Source of the DNA: Polyangium spumosum
GTDB taxonomy: Bacteria; Myxococcota_A; Polyangia; Polyangiales; Polyangiaceae
Direction: 5' to 3'
Assembly: GCF_009649845.1 (NCBI RefSeq)
Contig: NZ_WJIE01000005.1
Coordinates: forward strand, 744,001 to 808,000
DNA length: 64,000 nucleotides
Under the pieces are notes generated by a model. It saw only the letters and a list, made by a program, of their open reading frames with translations. It made no database searches and was not told the DNA's origin. The translations under genes were made by a program, and so were the position numbers. Shown here piece by piece: positions 41,981 through 49,549 of this stretch (positions within the stretch are counted from its first letter, which is position 1; every line of letters starts with the position of its first letter).

Positions 41981-42964
41981 TCAGGTCGCCGGGCGCGCGC
42001 TCGCCGAGGCGCGCACGTGGCGCTTCGCGCGCGCGCCGATGTTCGCCGCGTCGAAGCTCACGCTGCCGCCGAGGCTGTCGCTCGAGCCGCCCTTGTTGAT
42101 GCTCGTGCCGCCCGTGCTGCCGTCCGGCTTCTGGAGCTGCGAGATGACCTCGACCATCACGATCGCGCCCGCCGCGTACGACTCGGGCAGCGTGAACTGA
42201 CGGCTCGCGAGCCGCCCGCTCACGGCGCCCGCGACCGCGCTCCAGTCGCCGGCGTTGCCCGCCGACGAACGCACGACACGCACGCTCGACACGCGACCGC
42301 CGGGCGCGATGCGCACCTCGAGCGTCGCGCGCGCGACGTCGGGCGTCCCCGAGCCACGCACGACGTCGCTGACCACGCTCGCGATCGTGCCCGCGCCCGG
42401 CAGATCCAGGCCGAGCTGCCGGTCCTTCTCGCGCATCACGTCGGCGATGAGCTTGCCGGCGATCTTGCGATCGACCTCGGGCGCAGGCCCGACCGTGGTC
42501 GGCGCCGGTTTTGGTCTGCCCGCCTCGGGGATGACGCCCGGGATCGCCCACGCAGGGCCGCCGATGCCCGGGATCCCCGCGCCCACGCCGGGCACCGCAG
42601 GCGGCGGCGCGCCGTATTCGTCGGGCGCGCCGGCCGACGGCACGGCCGTGGGCACGGGATCGACCTGCTGCGGCTCGACCTGGTTCGGTTGCGCGTTCGG
42701 ATCCACGGCGCGTGGATCGACCGACTCCGTCGTGCGCGGACGCGTGTCGTTCACCGCGACGGCAGGGTCCGGCTCATGCTCGGGCCGCGGTTCGTCCGGG
42801 CGCGTCGGCTCGATCAGCTCGGGCTCGATCTCGATCTCCATGCGCCGCGCCATGCCGGTCGAGATCGCGAGGATCGCGCCCTGGGGACGCGGCGCGACTC
42901 GGGCGACGACCGGGATGAAGAAATGCACCCCGGTGGCGACGAGGACGAACGGGAGAAAGCGCAC
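41981..42964 (-). CDS. TonB-like envelope protein
   Basis: 327 residues. One N-terminal transmembrane segment (FLPFVLVATGVHFFIPVVARV) is followed by a long Pro/Asp/Glu-rich region (about 40-165; PNQVEPQQVDPVPTAVPS), which would span the periplasm, then a C-terminal domain (about 205-290) with the TonB/TolA-type fold: ATLEVRIAPGGRVSSVRVVRSS and FTLPESYAAGAIVMVEVISQ. The last 35 residues are Ser/Gly-rich. TonB couples inner-membrane proton motive force to outer-membrane receptors; without exbBD nearby this may be a stand-alone relative. The start ATG at 42964 puts the membrane segment at residue 3. Confidence 0.7.
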   Translation of the reverse strand: MRFLPFVLVATGVHFFIPVVARVAPRPQGAILAISTGMARRMEIEIEPELIEPTRPDEPRPEHEPDPAVAVNDTRPRTTESVDPRAVDPNAQPNQVEPQQVDPVPTAVPSAGAPDEYGAPPPAVPGVGAGIPGIGGPAWAIPGVIPEAGRPKPAPTTVGPAPEVDRKIAGKLIADVMREKDRQLGLDLPGAGTIASVVSDVVRGSGTPDVARATLEVRIAPGGRVSSVRVVRSSAGNAGDWSAVAGAVSGRLASRQFTLPESYAAGAIVMVEVISQLQKPDGSTGGTSINKGGSSDSLGGSVSFDAANIGARAKRHVRASASARPAT

Positions 42965-43073: not shown

Positions 43074-44069
43074 TCAGCCTTCGAGCCGGGCGACGGCGCG
43101 CTCGACGAGCGCGGGGACCATCTCGCGGCGCCACTCGGTGTCGTCGTCGACGTTCGGGAGGGGCTTGCACTCGGCGTAGGCGCCACCTCCGAGCTCGCGT
43201 GCGGCGACGTCGAACGGGGTCCCGGGACGGACCTTCGCGGCGGCGCGGACGCGGCGCGGGCGAGCGCCGAGCGCCGAGACCACGACGTCCGCGGCGTCGA
43301 CGCGCGATGTCTCCACGCCCGAGACGTCGAGGCGCACGGCGATCGAGAGCAAGGGAAAGTCGATCGCGCCTCTGCGGCGGAGCTTCTCGAAGGTGGAGCG
43401 TCGGCCCGGGTGGCGCGTGATGGAGACACGCGTGACGAGCTCGCCCGGCTCGAGCACGGTGTTCTTCACGCCGTCGGCCACGTAGAAATCGTGGGCCTCG
43501 ACGACACGCGCGCCGCGCGGGCCGACGAGGTGGATGTCGGCTTCGAGCGCGATGAGCGCGGGGGCCGTGTCGTTCGAGGCGGCGGCGACGCACCTCGATC
43601 CGCCGCGCACGACGTGGCAGACCGTGCCGTCCTTCTTGAGGCAAAAGCCCAGCGATTTGCGCCAGAAGTAGGTCTGGTTGTAGTAGCGGCAGCGCGTGTC
43701 GAGGCAGATGTTGCCGCCGAGCGTGCCCATGGAGCGGTGGTGCGGTCCGCCGACCTGGGACGCGGCCTCGGCGAGCGCGGGCGCGGCGCGGCGCACGAGG
43801 ATCGAGCTCTCGATCTCGGCGAGCTTCGCGCCCGCGCCGACGACGAGTTTGTCCGCGTCGCCCTCGCGGACGAGCGAGATGCCGCGGAGCTCGTCGATGC
43901 CGGCGATGGAGACGACGTGCTCGGGCTCGGCGAGCCCCTGCTTCATGTTGGGCAGGAGGTCGGTGCCGCCGGCGAGGATGACGGCCTTGTCGCCGAGGCG
44001 CGCGAGCAAGTCGATCGCCTCGGCGAGGGTGCGCGGCCTGTGATGATCGAAGACGGGCAGCGGTAACAT
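43074..44069 (-). CDS. FAD subunit of a molybdenum hydroxylase, 4-hydroxybenzoyl-CoA-reductase beta type
   Basis: 331 residues. FAD-binding fold of xanthine-dehydrogenase-type enzymes: LGDKAVILAGGTDLLPNMKQG, LVVGAGAKLAEIE and HRSMGTLGGNICLDTRC. In addition there is a Cys loop, C-x15-C-x7-C-x8-C (CRYYNQTYFWRKSLGFC, then C in GTVCHVV and C in GSRCVAA). This exact spacing marks the beta subunit of 4-hydroxybenzoyl-CoA reductase, where it binds an extra [4Fe-4S] cluster. That enzyme removes the para-hydroxyl of 4-hydroxybenzoyl-CoA using low-potential electrons. The gene is the last of a three-gene operon, seven bases after the molybdenum subunit. Substrate is inferred, not proved. Confidence 0.85.
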   Translation of the reverse strand: MLPLPVFDHHRPRTLAEAIDLLARLGDKAVILAGGTDLLPNMKQGLAEPEHVVSIAGIDELRGISLVREGDADKLVVGAGAKLAEIESSILVRRAAPALAEAASQVGGPHHRSMGTLGGNICLDTRCRYYNQTYFWRKSLGFCLKKDGTVCHVVRGGSRCVAAASNDTAPALIALEADIHLVGPRGARVVEAHDFYVADGVKNTVLEPGELVTRVSITRHPGRRSTFEKLRRRGAIDFPLLSIAVRLDVSGVETSRVDAADVVVSALGARPRRVRAAAKVRPGTPFDVAARELGGGAYAECKPLPNVDDDTEWRREMVPALVERAVARLEG

Positions 44070-44076
44070 GGTGGCC

Positions 44077-46383
44077 TCACTCCGCCTCGGCTTGTTTCTT
44101 CCGCAGCGCCGCGAGCACACGCGCCGGCGAGAAGGGCAGCCTGTCGATGCGGACGCCGACGGCGTCGAAGATGGCGTTCGCGATGGCGGGGATCGACGGG
44201 TGCAGCGGGCCTTCGCCCGACTCCTTGGCGCCGAGCGGGCCCTCTGGATCCTCGCTCTCGACGATCAGCGCGTGTAGCTCGGGGACGTCGAGGCTCGTCG
44301 GGATGCGGTAGTCGAGCAGGTTCGGCCCTTTGTGCAGGCCGTCGGGGCCGATGACGTGTTCTTCGAGCAGCGCCTCGGCCGCGCCCATGTAGGCCGAGCC
44401 CTCCATCTGCCCCTCGACGATGACGGGGCAGAGGGCCTTGCCGCAGTCGTGCGCGACCCAGATGTCCTCGACGCGCACGATCCCCGTGCGCGCGTCGACC
44501 GAGACCTCGGCGACGTGCGCGGTGAACGAATACGCGGGTGAGGCGCCGATGGTGCCGCCGCGGTAGTCGCCGCCGAGCTTGGGCGTGTTGTAGTGACCGA
44601 CGGCGCCGAGCGTGCCGAACTTCGCCTCCGCGAGCTGGATGGCCTCCGTGACGCTCACGCCGCGCGTCGGATCGTGCACGACGACGAGCGCGCCACGCGT
44701 GACGAGCACGCTCTTCGGATCGACCTCGAGCTTCTCGGCGACGGCGGCGACGAGCTTCTGCTTGATCTCGCGCGCGGCCATCAGGCACGCGTTGCCGTTC
44801 ATGAAGGTCCCGCGCGACGAATAAGCGCCGAGGTCGACGGGCGTGAGGTCCGTGTCGCCGGAGACGACGCGCACCGAGCCGAGATCCAGGCCGAGCTCGT
44901 CGGCGACGAGGACGGCGAGCATGAGGTCGCAGCCCTGGCCGATCTCGCTCTGGCCCGAGAAGACCGTGACCACGCCGGACCTGTCGACCTTGAGCTGCAC
45001 GGCGCTCTGGGGCATCGCGTTCGGGTAGATCGCGTAGTTCGTCCCGCTGATGTACGCGCTCGTCGCGACGCCGAGCCCGCGCCCCTTCGGCAGCTTGCCC
45101 CAGCGCTCTTTCCAGCCGCTCGCCTTCTCCACGGCGTCGAGGCACTGCGTGATGCCGTTCGAGGTGACGCGCAGTCCGTTCAGCGTGGTCGTGTCCGGCG
45201 GGACGAGGTTCTTCCTCCGCAGCTCGATCGGATCGAGCGCGAGCGCGCGGGCGATCTTGTCGAGCGAGACCTCGAAGGCGAAGCGCGGCTGCACGCTGCC
45301 GTGGCCGCGCTTCGGGCCGCAGGGAGGTTTGTTCGTGAAGAGGCGCGTCGAGCGGAAGCGGTAGGTGTCGGCGAACGCGGGCAGCGTGAGGAGCTGGCCC
45401 GAGTAGTAGGTGGTGACGAGGCCAAACGAGGAGTACGCGCCGCCGTCGATGAACGTGCGCGCGTCAACCCCCGTGAGCTTGCCGTCGCGCTTGGCGCCGA
45501 CCTTCATGCGGATCTGCATCGGGTGCCGGCCGCGGTGCGCGTAAAACTCCTCCTCGCGCGTGTAGAGGAACTTCACGGGCCTCCCCGTGATCATCGCGAG
45601 CTTGGCCGCGCAGAACTCGAGCGAGAACGGCTCGCTCTTGCCGCCGAACGCGCCGCCGACGGGCGGCTGGATGACGCGGATGCGCGTGGGCGGGACGCGC
45701 AGGACACGCGAGAGCTCGCGGTGCAGGTAGTGCGGGACCTGCGTCGTCGACCAGACGGTGAGCAGCCCGTTCTTGTCGAGGTTCGCGATGGCGCAGTGGG
45801 TCTCGATCGGGGCGTGCGCGCTGCCCTCGTAGTAGTAGTCGCCCTCGATGACGACGTCGCTCGCGGCGAGCGCCTGGTCGACGTCGCCGAACGCGAGGTC
45901 GACCTCCTTCGAGACGTTGTCCTTGCCGCCCTTGCCGAGCCCGACCTCGGGTTTGTCGATCGCCGTCTGCAGATCGGTCGCGGCCGGCAGGACCTCGTAC
46001 TCGACGTCGACGAGCTCGGCCGCTTCGTGCGCGATCCGCTCGTCGGTGGCGGCGACGGCGGCGACGGCGTCGCCGACGAAGCGCGCGCGCTCGAGGGCGA
46101 GCGGGAACTCGTCCGGCGTCCACGGGATGATGCCGAAGCGCTCGGGCATGTCCTTGCCCGTGATGACGGCGACGACGCCCGGCTTCGCGAGCGCGCGTGT
46201 CGCGTCGATGCGCACGATACGCGCGTGCGGGTGCGGCGAGCGGACGATCCGGCCCCAGAGCATGCGCGGCAGGTGGATGTCGTCGGTGTAGCGGACCTGT
46301 CCCGTCACGCGCGGCGCGAGCAACGTGCGCGTGCGGCTCCCGACGAGGCCCCGGAGGCCACTCGGCTTGTGCGCGTCCGTCAT
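44077..46383 (-). CDS. Molybdopterin-binding large subunit of a xanthine-dehydrogenase-family enzyme
   Basis: 768 residues. Typical large-subunit motifs: VTGQVRYTDDIHLPRMLWGRIVRSPHPHA (N-terminal), EGSAHAPIETHCAIA, QPPVGGAFGGKSEPF (molybdopterin contact), NKPPCGPKRGHGSVQPRFAFE, GQSEIGQGCDLMLAVLVADEL, and the catalytic-Glu loop LGAKESGEGPLHPSIPAIANAI near the C-terminus. It matches the HcrA/CoxL type of molybdenum hydroxylases. With the [4Fe-4S]-bearing FAD subunit downstream, a hydroxybenzoyl-CoA-reductase-like reaction is more likely than a simple hydroxylase. The start ATG overlaps the stop of the upstream fusion gene (ATGA). Confidence 0.9.
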   Translation of the reverse strand: MTDAHKPSGLRGLVGSRTRTLLAPRVTGQVRYTDDIHLPRMLWGRIVRSPHPHARIVRIDATRALAKPGVVAVITGKDMPERFGIIPWTPDEFPLALERARFVGDAVAAVAATDERIAHEAAELVDVEYEVLPAATDLQTAIDKPEVGLGKGGKDNVSKEVDLAFGDVDQALAASDVVIEGDYYYEGSAHAPIETHCAIANLDKNGLLTVWSTTQVPHYLHRELSRVLRVPPTRIRVIQPPVGGAFGGKSEPFSLEFCAAKLAMITGRPVKFLYTREEEFYAHRGRHPMQIRMKVGAKRDGKLTGVDARTFIDGGAYSSFGLVTTYYSGQLLTLPAFADTYRFRSTRLFTNKPPCGPKRGHGSVQPRFAFEVSLDKIARALALDPIELRRKNLVPPDTTTLNGLRVTSNGITQCLDAVEKASGWKERWGKLPKGRGLGVATSAYISGTNYAIYPNAMPQSAVQLKVDRSGVVTVFSGQSEIGQGCDLMLAVLVADELGLDLGSVRVVSGDTDLTPVDLGAYSSRGTFMNGNACLMAAREIKQKLVAAVAEKLEVDPKSVLVTRGALVVVHDPTRGVSVTEAIQLAEAKFGTLGAVGHYNTPKLGGDYRGGTIGASPAYSFTAHVAEVSVDARTGIVRVEDIWVAHDCGKALCPVIVEGQMEGSAYMGAAEALLEEHVIGPDGLHKGPNLLDYRIPTSLDVPELHALIVESEDPEGPLGAKESGEGPLHPSIPAIANAIFDAVGVRIDRLPFSPARVLAALRKKQAEAE

Positions 46384-48014
46384 GACTGGCCTTGCCTCCC
46401 CTCGCGTGAGCTCTTCTGGTTCGAGGGCAAGGGCTCTGGCGTGTCCTCGATCCCCGGCATCCCCACGCCCCGCTCCGCCTCGCCGCGCCGGATCTTCGCC
46501 GCGAGCTCGATCGCGTCGACGATCTTGCCATAACCCGTGCAGCGGCAGAGGTTGCCCGAGATGGCGCACTTGATCTCGTCCCGCGTCGGGCGCGGGTTCC
46601 TGTCGAGCAGCGCCGTCGCGGTCATCAGCATGCCGGGCGTGCAGAAGCCACACTGCCCGCCGCCGAGGCGATCGAAGCCGTCGAGCAACGCGTCGACGTG
46701 CGGCGCGCCTTCGAGCGTCTCGACCGTGCAGACGTCCTTGCCGTCCGCCTCGACCGCGAGCGTGAGGCAAGCGAGGGTCGCGACGCCGTCCACGACGACC
46801 GTACACGCGCCGCAATCGCCCTTGTCGCAGCCCTGCTTGGTGCCGACGAGGTCGAGGTCGTAACGCAACGCTTCGAGCAACGTCCTGCGCGGCGGGACCG
46901 CGAGCGCGACGGCGCTGCCGCCGATGCGGAGGGACATCGGCACGAGCCTCTCACCAGGCGCGGGCGGCTCGATGCGCTGCGCTTCTTCGGCCTCGGCGGG
47001 AGCGCGGTAGGGGCGCACCTCGAAGCGCGCGCCGCGTGTCTTCGCGCCTGCGATCGGGTGCCCTGCGGGGATCGGGACCCGGAGCGCGCGCGAGGCGAGC
47101 TCGCAGTACTCGACGAGGCGAGCCTCGGCGACACGCGCGCGCACGCCCAGCAGGCCGAGGTTCTCGACGAGCAGCTCGAGGTTCGTGTTGCCCACGCGCT
47201 CGCCCACGCCGAGGCCGGTGCCGTGCACGCGATCGACGCCGAGGGCGGCGGCCCAGAGCGCGTTCGGCAGCCCGATGCCGCGGTCGTTGTGCCCGTGCCA
47301 GTCGAGCTCGACGTGCCTCGCGCCGAGCTCGGCGAGGGTCTGCCGCGCGAAGCCGACGAGCGCCTCGATGCCGTAGGGCGTGACGTGCCCCGTGGTGTCG
47401 CAGAGGCAGATCCGGCTCGCGCCCGCGTCGATCGCGGCCTTGTAGAGGGTGCGGAGGACGTCGGGGTTCGAGCGGGTGGTGTCCTCGGTGACGAGGCAGA
47501 AGGGCAAGCCTGCAACCCTGGCCTCGCGGGCGGCGGCGGTGATGGCGCCGAGGAGGAAGTCCGTGTCCCAGCCCTCGACGGAGAGGCGGATGGGGGAGCT
47601 GCCGATGAAGGCGTAGACCTCGATGGGGATGCCGGCGCGATCGGCGGCGCGCGCGATGCCGTGGACGTCGGAGACGACGGTGCGGGCGGCGGCGGTGGGG
47701 ACGACGGCGAGCTTTTCGCGGACGATCTCGCGGCAGAGGAGGAAGCAGTCCTCGGCGTTGGCGAGGCCTGCGGCGGGCAGGCCGACGCTGACGACGTCGA
47801 CGCCGATGGCGGCCATGGCGTGGAGCAGGTCGATCTTCTGCGCGGCGTCGGGCTGGAAGCCGGCGGCGCTCTGCAGGCCGTCCCGGAGGGTCTCGTCGAC
47901 GACCTTCACGGGCCGCGGCCGCTCTGCGAAGCCACGCGACGCAGGGCCACCGGAGAGCGAGATCACGCGTCCCTGTCCATCAAGCGACGGGGCGCTGTCG
48001 TTCCAGTCGTACAT
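46380..48014 (-). CDS. Fusion: DRE-TIM (LeuA/HMG-lyase-like) enzyme joined to a molybdenum-hydroxylase [2Fe-2S] subunit
   Basis: 544 residues (ATG 48014). Residues about 33-320 are a DRE-TIM metallolyase domain related to 2-isopropylmalate, homocitrate and HMG-CoA-lyase-type enzymes: VVDETLRDGLQSA (R44-D45), LCDTTGHVTPYG, and the metal motif DWHGHNDRG (H240, H242), with HGTGLGVGERVGNTNLELL near the end. Residues about 358-515 are the small [2Fe-2S] subunit of xanthine-dehydrogenase-family enzymes: first cluster Cys 396, 401, 404, 416; second cluster Cys 455, 458, 490, 492 with the C-x2-C-x31-C-x-C spacing. The LeuA regulatory domain is absent. The frame runs through the junction without a stop; an internal ATG (MSLRIGG, residue 360) with a distant GAGG could also make a free small subunit. 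It is the first gene of a three-gene operon and faces a TetR-like palindrome. Confidence 0.88.
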   Translation of the reverse strand: MYDWNDSAPSLDGQGRVISLSGGPASRGFAERPRPVKVVDETLRDGLQSAAGFQPDAAQKIDLLHAMAAIGVDVVSVGLPAAGLANAEDCFLLCREIVREKLAVVPTAAARTVVSDVHGIARAADRAGIPIEVYAFIGSSPIRLSVEGWDTDFLLGAITAAAREARVAGLPFCLVTEDTTRSNPDVLRTLYKAAIDAGASRICLCDTTGHVTPYGIEALVGFARQTLAELGARHVELDWHGHNDRGIGLPNALWAAALGVDRVHGTGLGVGERVGNTNLELLVENLGLLGVRARVAEARLVEYCELASRALRVPIPAGHPIAGAKTRGARFEVRPYRAPAEAEEAQRIEPPAPGERLVPMSLRIGGSAVALAVPPRRTLLEALRYDLDLVGTKQGCDKGDCGACTVVVDGVATLACLTLAVEADGKDVCTVETLEGAPHVDALLDGFDRLGGGQCGFCTPGMLMTATALLDRNPRPTRDEIKCAISGNLCRCTGYGKIVDAIELAAKIRRGEAERGVGMPGIEDTPEPLPSNQKSSREGRQGQS

Positions 48015-48101
48015 GGGAACCCCCGAGGTGATCCGCAGTGATGAGTACCACGGAACGGGGTTCGGCCGGGATGGGGGATGCCCTCGTCGCCCCTCCGACC
48101 C

Positions 48102-48131
48102 TTGACACCTCACATCGGTGCCCTCTAAGTA
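48102..48131 (+). promoter_or_regulatory. Candidate promoter facing the NTF2-like lipoprotein gene
   Basis: TTGACA at 48102-48107 is followed after 17-18 bases by CTAAGT or TAAGTA, overlapping the palindrome at 48127-48146. The -35 is perfect and the -10 weak. It lies between the divergent fusion gene and the gene at 48222. Confidence 0.45.
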
Positions 48132-48146
48132 AGTGAGCACTTGCTT
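48127..48146. promoter_or_regulatory. TetR-type palindromic operator
   Basis: AAGTAAGTGAGCACTTGCTT: 9-base arms with 8 of 9 matches around a 2-base spacer. Size and form match operators of TetR-family repressors. It sits in the 207 bp between the molybdenum-hydroxylase operon and the lipoprotein gene, 770 bases from the TetR gene itself. Confidence 0.6.
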
Positions 48147-48221
48147 GCCGGCACCTCCGGGCAGCCGATGTCGAGCAGGGCAAGCAGTCGTCCTGAAAAC
48201 CCATTACGTAGAAGAGGTTCC

Positions 48222-48860
48222 ATGAACAGCGACAGCCGTGTTCACCGTCCGCGGCGCGGGCGCACGCTCCGAGGCTCGGGAGCGAAATGCATTTCCCTCC
48301 TGGCCATTGCGCTCGTGAGCCTGTTCGCGGCTTGCGAGCCCGTGGACGAGCCGCCTGCCGAGGCGCCGCAGGGCGAGCCCGACCTCGCGTCCCTCGAAGC
48401 GCGCATCTCCGTCCTCGAGGCCAAAGAGGAGATCCGCTCGACGCTCCTCGCGTTCGCCGCCGTGGTGGACTCGGCCGATCCGGAGAGGCTCCCGGACCTG
48501 CTCCCCTCCCTCACAGACGATTTCGTGCTCGACGCCGTTGATTTCAATGGTCAGGTCCACCATTTCGAGGGCGTCGTCGAGGTGCTCACGGGCTTCGGGC
48601 CCATCATGAAAGACGCAGACGCGAACCTGATGCCGAGCGCCATCGACGTGGAGCTCGACGGGGACACGGCCTATGCGTCCTTCAAATTCGCGAACTCGGT
48701 CAAGCCTCCGCCGCAGCTCGACCTGCCCGTCGACGAAAAGGTCCTCCTCTTCGCGGCAAACTCCGCCGTGTTCCACAAAAAGAACGGCGCCTGGAAGCTC
48801 GCCTCGTTCGAGCTCCTGCATTCCCTCGCCTACCCTGGTAGCCTCGCGCCAGCCCCGTGA
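48222..48860 (+). CDS. NTF2/SnoaL-like lipoprotein
   Basis: 212 residues. The N-terminus is basic then hydrophobic and ends in a lipobox-like LFAAC (LLAIALVSLFAACEPVDEPP), followed by a Pro/Glu linker, suggesting membrane anchoring by lipid. Residues about 60-200 look like a SnoaL/NTF2-type cone fold (LEARISVLEAKEEIRSTLLAFAAVVDS, DDFVLDAVDFNGQVHHFEGVVEVLTGF, DGDTAYASFKFANSVKP, WKLASFELLHSLAYPG). Such domains bind or transform small hydrophobic molecules; catalytic residues cannot be assigned. AGAAGAGGTTCC upstream supports the ATG. It is divergent from the fusion gene and upstream of the TetR gene, so the group is probably regulated together. Confidence 0.75.
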   Translation: MNSDSRVHRPRRGRTLRGSGAKCISLLAIALVSLFAACEPVDEPPAEAPQGEPDLASLEARISVLEAKEEIRSTLLAFAAVVDSADPERLPDLLPSLTDDFVLDAVDFNGQVHHFEGVVEVLTGFGPIMKDADANLMPSAIDVELDGDTAYASFKFANSVKPPPQLDLPVDEKVLLFAANSAVFHKKNGAWKLASFELLHSLAYPGSLAPAP

Positions 48861-48916: not shown

Positions 48917-49549
48917 ATGACGCGCACACGTCTCCCCGGCGCGGATCGGCGGCGGCAGATCGCCGAGGCCGCGCTGCGGATCATCGCCACAGCCGGCGTG
49001 CATCGCCTGACGGCCGTCGAGATCGCGCGAGAGGTCGGCATCGCCGACGGCAGCATCTTCCGCCACTTCGAGGACAAGCGCGCGATCGTCGCGGCGGCGG
49101 TGGACGTCTTCGAGGGGATGCTCTTGGAGGATTTCCCGCCCGAGGATCCCGATCCGCTCGAACGACTGAAGAGTTTCCTCCTCCGCCGCCTCGCGCTGGT
49201 ACGCGCGCACCCGGAGATCCTGAGGCTCGCGTTCAACGACCGGCTCGTCGAGGCCGCAGGCGAGGAGGGCGCCGCGCGCGTGCAGGCATCCGTGCAGCGC
49301 TCGATGTCATTCGTCCGAGCCTGCCTCGCCGAGGCCCAGGAGAAGGGGACGATCACGTCCGCCGTGCCCGTGGACGTGATGGTCTGGGCCGTCACGGGGA
49401 TCCTCCGCGGCGCCGCCTTCCAGGAAATGGCGGGAGCATCGAAGAGCCCGCCCCTCACGCCCGAGGCGCTCTGGCCCTCGATCGCGGCCTTGCTCCGCGG
49501 CCCGCCACTCCACCCGACCACGCACGAACACAAGGAACGAGCCAAATGA
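48917..49549 (+). CDS. TetR/AcrR-family transcriptional regulator
   Basis: 210 residues. Residues about 10-58 form the TetR helix-turn-helix: RRRQIAEAALRIIATAGVHRLTAVEIAREVGIADGSIFRHFEDKRAIV. The rest is the all-helical ligand-binding and dimer domain (LLRRLALVRAHPEILRLAFNDRLVEAA, PVDVMVWAVTGILRGAAFQEM). Ligand unknown. A TetR-like palindrome at 48127-48146 and a related half-site pair just before its own start suggest that it represses the fusion operon, the lipoprotein gene and itself. It is followed by the cupin gene with an ATGA overlap. Confidence 0.9.
   Translation: MTRTRLPGADRRRQIAEAALRIIATAGVHRLTAVEIAREVGIADGSIFRHFEDKRAIVAAAVDVFEGMLLEDFPPEDPDPLERLKSFLLRRLALVRAHPEILRLAFNDRLVEAAGEEGAARVQASVQRSMSFVRACLAEAQEKGTITSAVPVDVMVWAVTGILRGAAFQEMAGASKSPPLTPEALWPSIAALLRGPPLHPTTHEHKERAK

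Follow-up and report, generated by a model that had tools for sequence, protein, structure and literature searches.

What purpose could be served by a gene of Polyangium spumosum that joins a carbon-carbon bond enzyme to the electron-transfer subunit of a molybdenum hydroxylase? The question is raised by a stretch of 64,000 nucleotides (the window; GCF_009649845.1, contig NZ_WJIE01000005.1, forward-strand positions 744,001 to 808,000), whose initial annotation reported a LeuA-like DRE-TIM barrel and a molybdenum-hydroxylase [2Fe-2S] subunit in one open frame. The reading we favour, with a probability of about one half, is that of a hydroxybenzoyl-CoA-type reductase carrying a tethered DRE-TIM enzyme that lacks the catalytic C-terminal subdomain (the lid) and acts in a carbon-carbon step of the same pathway.

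The joint frame is genuine (Table 1). The minus-strand open reading frame (ORF) extends from 46380 to 48140 with no internal stop, encoding 586 aa from an upstream GTG or 544 aa from the ATG at 48014. The latter is the likely start codon, since the N-terminal DWN recurs in 15 of 25 DRE-bearing rows (alignment A2, in which some other rows are cut short), and residues are numbered from it. Three Pfam domains were found on the frame, HMGL-like (132.9 bits, cut-off 29), Fer2_2 (91.0, cut-off 30.3) and Fer2 (28.8, cut-off 21). The RD and HGHND motifs are intact as annotated, within R44-D45-G-L-Q48 and H240-G-H242-N-D, and are followed by G-E-R-V-G-N276. All eight annotated cluster cysteines are present (Cys 396, 401, 404, 416, 455, 458, 490 and 492), and every one of the 45 small-subunit rows in the alignment has them; a few rows of the subunit alignments are duplicates of one genome.

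Table 1. Features of the fused gene and its operon partners, in window coordinates.
Feature	Position	Strand	Evidence
Fused CDS: DRE-TIM barrel, linker and [2Fe-2S] small (gamma) subunit, 544 aa	46380..48014	-	Stop-free ORF; Pfam; fused in 16 genomes
DRE-TIM barrel, residues 34-325; R44, D45, E177, H240, H242, N276 conserved	47040..47915	-	Pfam; alignment; AlphaFold match
Linker, residues 326-356, at the site of the lid subdomain in long homologues	46947..47039	-	pLDDT <50 at 326-346
HcrC-like double [2Fe-2S] domain, residues 357-512	46479..46946	-	1rm6_C 149 bits; Z 26.4
HcrA-like molybdopterin (alpha) subunit, start codon inferred	44077..46383	-	TIGR03194 836.3 bits (cut-off 994.55); 1rm6_A 608.3 bits
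HcrB-like FAD (beta) subunit with four-cysteine ([4Fe-4S]) loop, start codon inferred	43074..44069	-	TIGR03195 274.6 bits (cut-off 404.55); 1rm6_B 201.8 bits

To follow the fusion in relatives, 183 genomes of the order were searched with the molybdenum subunit, and 43 of them match at E <= 1e-150. Two were set aside as distant (G350 and G321, 43-45% identity), leaving 41 close-Mo genomes; the locus stretches cover all 41 and G350, not G321. The in-frame fusion is found in 16 of the 183 genomes: the window's, five further species of its genus (six of six in the genus) and G196, G328, G340, G356, G357, G358, G372, G409, G410 and G120, with the barrel of G358 and the molybdenum gene of G357 running past a contig end. 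The molybdenum subunits of the six fused genomes of the genus are 94-95% identical. Eleven other close-Mo genomes have a separate DRE-TIM gene (DRE) directly beside the reductase genes, in one (G115) it lies some 10 kb from them within the same cluster, and the stretches of the other 13 show none. Separate DRE and reductase genes overlap as ATGA in G397, G398, G318 and G395. Two or more DRE matches (E <= 1e-60) occur in 33 of 41 close-Mo genomes and in 12 of 142 others (hand count), although this and the other co-occurrence counts, which carry no phylogenetic correction, assume that related genomes are independent and that incomplete ones are complete. A pattern scan of 84,980 species genomes, which excludes near relatives of the window and does not bound the range of the fusion, returned at least three one-frame records (L034, L035 and L036), corresponding to G409, G120 and G357 and adding no new genomes. 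Outside Myxococcota, one adjacent unfused DRE gene was found among the matches listed, in a metagenome-assembled genome (MAG) of Acidobacteria (L039).

A frameshift or assembly error at the junction, which the initial annotation had considered as a way to refute the fusion, is extremely improbable. The same in-frame fusion occurs in 16 genomes, six of them of one genus and three (G391, G372 and G328) represented by assemblies of one or two contigs, and the linker is in frame in six of six genomes of the genus; the artefact was therefore rejected. Separate genes do exist in relatives (G397, G398 and others), as an artefact would lead one to expect, but they do not refute the fusion since 16 genomes keep it. 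The position of the junction, annotated as near 46950-46990, is corrected to about 46947-47039.

The AlphaFold model (44-row alignment) has a mean predicted local distance difference test score (pLDDT) of 83.4 and a predicted template modelling score (pTM) of 0.68; the domains are confidently predicted, with residues 326-346 as a break between them. Homocitrate, isopropylmalate and citramalate synthases match the first domain with Z of 31-37 (best 36.9 over 296 residues, root-mean-square deviation (rmsd) 2.4), and aldolases and HMG-CoA lyases match it at lower values (Z 26-30; HMG-CoA lyase 26-28.5). The second domain matches 1rm6_C over 157 residues with an rmsd of 1.3, and other molybdenum-hydroxylase small subunits about equally (Z 24-26.5). 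Such fold likeness alone is no proof of function.

The fused, molybdenum and FAD genes look like one three-gene operon with the fused gene first, since the TGA of the fused gene overlaps the ATG of the molybdenum gene (ATGA) and 7 bases separate the stop of the latter from the ATG of the FAD gene. The suggestion of a hydroxybenzoyl-CoA-reductase-type partner is supported, as all three subunits have 4-hydroxybenzoyl-CoA reductase (1rm6) as the best PDB match, narrowly for the small subunit, while the next best PDB sequences reach 300.7 bits for the molybdenum subunit and 112.4 for the FAD subunit. In the beta subunit of 4-hydroxybenzoyl-CoA reductase, a four-cysteine insertion binds an extra [4Fe-4S] cluster. 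The FAD subunit has an insertion that aligns with that of 1rm6_B, and its first Cys is kept in 43 of 43 rows and the other three in 42 of 43 (the exception is L190). Of 49 molybdenum-subunit rows, 45 retain the Glu that aligns with the end of the 1rm6_A motif GAKE..EG; the remaining four comprise three rows truncated at this position and one with Asp. A study of Rhodopseudomonas palustris describes HbaB, a subunit of 4-hydroxybenzoyl-CoA reductase, as needed for the use of 4-hydroxybenzoate (PMC6974649). Upstream of the operon and divergent from it lie a SnoaL-like protein (48141-48860, +) and a TetR regulator (48917-49549, +), and the latter may control the operon.

The barrel itself belongs to a family that comes with and without the lid. 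From 89 collected DRE homologues, 77 rows were kept after 12 duplicates or fragments had been dropped; 48 are long (about 415 aa, with a C-terminal subdomain TGVHA...YS) and 29 are short, ending after the barrel. The lid motif is found in none of the 29 short rows, the window's protein included, and TGVHA in all 48 long ones (44 TGVHAA-type by pattern, 4 TGVHAS). The LeuA regulatory domain had been annotated as missing, and it is absent, but the catalytic C-terminal subdomain is gone too; a canonical LeuA minus its regulatory domain only was thus rejected. The fused proteins and the divergently placed reductase-neighbour DREs that we examined are all short.

In Claisen-type DRE-TIM synthases a catalytic Tyr lies in the C-terminal subdomain, and subdomain II of isopropylmalate synthase (IPMS) is reportedly essential for activity, going by the title of one paper. 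For methylthioalkylmalate synthase, one paper gives Asp90, His288 and His290 as metal ligands, Arg89 and Thr257 as contacts of the oxo-acid, Gln93 and His388 as lying near the reacting centre, and a C-terminal domain that completes the CoA site of the neighbouring chain (PMC8468904). The counterparts R44, D45, Q48, T207, H240 and H242, assigned by motif position, are kept in 29 of 29 short rows, and R44, D45, H240 and H242 in at least 98% of the 48 long ones. The subdomain for the counterpart of His388 is absent from every short row. Among 25 of the 34 matching families, the fused barrel scores at best 129.5 bits against the families of IPMS, homocitrate synthase (HCS) and citramalate synthase (cut-off 517), and the HMG-CoA lyase subfamily is not among these 25 for the window's protein; two other short proteins score 24.6 and 25.7 there against a cut-off of 246. 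The barrel also falls under the cut-offs for 4-hydroxy-2-oxovalerate aldolase (NF006049, 61.2 < 229; TIGR03217, 49.9 < 286).

In the best tree, 15 fused rows group with the split pair of G397 and G398 and with Sorangium (SH-like approximate likelihood ratio test, SH-aLRT, 99), with other short forms elsewhere. This tree requires two lid changes. The approximately unbiased test does not reject a tree in which the 28 lid-less rows form one clade (p-AU 0.183), so that repeated independent loss of the lid, and with it convergence, is not claimed. Sorangium cellulosum (L037, L038) has a free-standing lid-less DRE of the fused clade, which could be assayed alone.

The reductase of some relatives sits in class I benzoyl-CoA reductase clusters. 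In G115, genes for DRE, Had, Oah, Dch, BcrC, BcrB, BcrA, BcrD and the [2Fe-2S], molybdenum and FAD subunits follow each other on one strand. Had (390.9 bits, cut-off 338.65), Oah (502.9, 464.45), BcrC (470.9, 421.15), BcrB (684, 486.55) and BcrD (329.3, 312.85) exceed their equivalog cut-offs, while BcrA (528.7, 578) and Dch (221.4, 292.5) fall below theirs. Parts of this set have homologues flanking the reductase in L165, L171, L176, L056 and L039. BcrB exceeds its cut-off in 24 of the 183 genomes (27 match at E <= 1e-60), namely in 21 of 41 close-Mo genomes, 3 of the 16 fused ones among them, and in 3 of 142 others. BoxB of the aerobic Box pathway has a match in 109 of the 183 (106 over the cut-off), the window's genome included (C4:596177), with 39 of 41 close-Mo genomes, among them all 16 fused ones, and 70 of 142 others. 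In L165 (G385:C46), BcrB, hydroxybenzoyl-CoA-reductase-type genes and BoxB lie within 9 kb, with the anaerobic and aerobic benzoyl-CoA routes side by side. Clustering of flanking ORFs (33 loci, mostly one genome per genus, ORFs of at least 140 aa passing a codon-GC filter) yielded at most one family that the window shares with another genus, that of the gene at about 41984-42964, whose match is weak (32%); the Bcr set and the aconitase are flanking clusters shared in relatives only.

This aconitase, LeuD/LeuC-like and single-chain, is encoded after the fused operon in L035 and next to short DREs in L168, L184, L189 and L236; in L238, 2.4 kb separate it from a short DRE. In G316, G239 and G416 the DRE-adjacent aconitase is a second copy. 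Both the aconitase and the DRE family are present in 117 genomes, one alone in 13 and neither in 53. L236 (G333) and L238 (G359) are in genomes without a molybdenum-subunit match at E <= 1e-150, where the pair of short DRE and aconitase may work without the reductase. On a plasmid of Streptomyces sp. KN37 (L191), a long homologue (44%) is followed by an aconitase and by isocitrate/isopropylmalate-dehydrogenase-family genes. Two crotonyl-CoA carboxylase/reductase genes lie near this long LeuA-like gene, beside genes for polyketide and nonribosomal peptide synthetases, and the cluster is possibly an extender- or starter-unit pathway.

Three genes of the window's genome belong to PF00682: the fused gene, a long, lid-bearing gene that stands alone (C6:297891, 50% identical) and an HMG-CoA lyase-like gene on C30 (403.8 bits, cut-off 246). 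The genome also has one aconitase of the L035 type (C6:580982) and one LeuB-like dehydrogenase below its cut-offs; together with the long DRE these could simply be the leucine pathway. The long DRE was considered as an aromatic enzyme and set aside, plain leucine synthesis being at least as likely for the sole LeuA candidate found in the genome. The five neighbouring genes considered (CcmF, CcmH and others) gave no clue to its role.

We suggest that the three genes specify the subunits of a molybdenum enzyme of the 4-hydroxybenzoyl-CoA reductase type, with the barrel at the N-terminus of the gamma subunit. The reductase part would most likely dehydroxylate the ring of a hydroxybenzoyl-CoA-type ester, using electrons that flow from [4Fe-4S] to FAD, to the two [2Fe-2S] clusters and to molybdenum. 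The resulting benzoyl-CoA would enter the aerobic Box pathway; in some relatives it would instead go to class I benzoyl-CoA reductase. The barrel, a putative lid-less member of the isopropylmalate/homocitrate synthase group with intact active-site residues, would most likely act in the same pathway by forming or cleaving a carbon-carbon bond in a 2-oxo- or 2-hydroxy-acid, the tether serving proximity. The fusion, its conservation, the cofactor ligands, the missing lid and the pathway neighbours are observed, while direction, substrate, catalysis and any channelling we infer. Acetyl-CoA condensation is doubtful because the fused barrel has no C-terminal catalytic lid. The absence of the lid favours lyase or aldol-type chemistry, whereas the aconitase neighbours and the lid-bearing adjacent copies favour a synthase; we weakly prefer the lyase or aldol type. 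A bolder version, tentative and rather unlikely, would open a new way to benzoyl-CoA. Here a hydroxybenzoyl-CoA-type reductase and a lid-less barrel of the alkylmalate-synthase type would form a bifunctional enzyme working on one aromatic intermediate with a LeuD/LeuC-like aconitase, so that leucine-type chain chemistry would have been rebuilt into aromatic catabolism feeding the Box pathway.

Several observations weigh against the tethered lid-less enzyme as we read it. The three subunits all score below the NCBIfam equivalog cut-offs (Table 1; TIGR03193, 160.2 < 257.8, for the small subunit); the enzyme is therefore not classed as a proven 4-hydroxybenzoyl-CoA reductase, and its substrate may differ. 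For the small subunit, the match to 1rm6_C (149 bits) barely exceeds that to quinoline oxidoreductase (146.3 bits). The window's genome and 12 more of the 16 fused ones have no BcrB match at E <= 1e-60. The 13 close-Mo genomes without a DRE near the reductase, within the stretch fetched and with some on short contigs, also count here; five of them (G102, G071, G281, G027 and G385) have a second DRE match elsewhere, lid-less in those inspected (G102, G027 and G071). Sorangium, whose best molybdenum-subunit match reaches only 33% identity, still has a short DRE. Four reductase-adjacent DREs (L039, L056, L166 and L171) are long and keep the lid, so that a lid-less reaction is not a universal requirement, and the aconitase beside short DREs in several loci hints at synthase-type chemistry.

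These last two points, and the co-occurrence of the DRE and aconitase families, are what one would expect if the barrel were still a synthase that receives its lid in trans, from the long paralogue or from the reductase, and condenses an acyl-CoA with an aromatic 2-oxo-acid ahead of the aconitase. We regard this as unlikely: there is no sign of a binding partner, the lid site of the fused form holds a low-confidence linker, and the co-occurrence may merely reflect the leucine pathway of each genome. The missing lid and the prediction of the two halves as separate domains would also suit a mainly structural barrel, which would contribute little catalysis and stabilise the reductase through dimerisation or assembly. 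However, the metal ligands and the substrate Arg do not vary in any of the 29 short rows, as one would expect of a working active site, and unfused short DREs exist in Sorangium without a close reductase, which makes a structural role improbable.

The other uncertainty concerns the molybdenum enzyme, which could be an oxidising hydroxylase for another substrate rather than a dehydroxylating reductase, the barrel being part of that unrelated pathway. The sub-cut-off scores and the 13 fused genomes without BcrB are compatible with this; still, two features in common with 1rm6, the four-cysteine loop and the GAKE..EG motif, are conserved, relatives have benzoyl-CoA pathway neighbours and every fused genome has BoxB, and we give an oxidising enzyme the same low standing as a structural barrel.

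Among known systems, 4-hydroxybenzoyl-CoA reductase (HcrABC or HbaBCD) shares the three subunits, the cysteines for two [2Fe-2S] clusters and the four-cysteine loop in the FAD subunit; the differences here are the barrel on the gamma subunit, the equivalog scores and an enzyme known from its sequence. The 2-isopropylmalate, homocitrate, citramalate and methylthioalkylmalate synthases share the barrel fold and the R-D...Q, HxH and GER-GN motifs, but the fused barrel has neither catalytic lid nor regulatory domain, is joined to a [2Fe-2S] domain and scores below the IPMS and HCS cut-offs. HMG-CoA lyase resembles the fused barrel in fold, in its RDGLQ sequence and in having no C-terminal lid, whereas the fused barrel has GVGERVGN in place of the lyase cysteine loop and its genome has a separate HMG-CoA lyase-like gene. 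The nearest precedent for the arrangement, going by entry titles, is the aldolase-dehydrogenase of the DmpG-DmpF type (1nvm, 4lrs), a DRE-TIM enzyme held to a redox enzyme. These two pass on an intermediate as separate subunits, with an NAD dehydrogenase and 4-hydroxy-2-oxovalerate, unlike the DRE-TIM enzyme here, which is covalently joined to one subunit of a molybdenum enzyme.

Some further loci deserve mention. A different fusion, of the [2Fe-2S] and molybdenum subunits of the same reductase family, occupies one open frame in L167:5384-8506 (G336) and L169:3-3626 (G337). L170 (G102), L173 (G071), L174 (G281) and L175 (G056) have molybdenum and FAD genes of this family, but tblastn with the [2Fe-2S] domain of the fused protein (E <= 1e-3) found no recognisable small-subunit gene in the stretch; that subunit must be encoded elsewhere, have diverged or have been lost. 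A MAG titled Bifidobacterium breve (L096) contains a 48% match to the [2Fe-2S] half of the fused protein, and one titled Gammaproteobacteria (L044) has a long DRE near the copies of Gemmatimonadetes MAGs; in both, the title or the bin may be wrong.

In the open-licence literature, at the level of titles and abstract openings, we found no description of a fusion between a DRE-TIM enzyme and a molybdenum-hydroxylase small subunit and, in titles and abstracts, nothing on a benzoyl-CoA route in Polyangium. A carbon-carbon bond enzyme covalently joined to the subunit that transfers electrons in a molybdenum aromatic-CoA reductase thus appears, within that literature, to be an undescribed architecture. 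It is a natural experiment on the role of a DRE-TIM barrel deprived of its condensation lid. If the barrel is active, it points to a novel intermediate to or from (hydroxy)benzoyl-CoA, and the system suggests that myxobacteria pair reductive ring dehydroxylation with the oxygen-dependent Box pathway.

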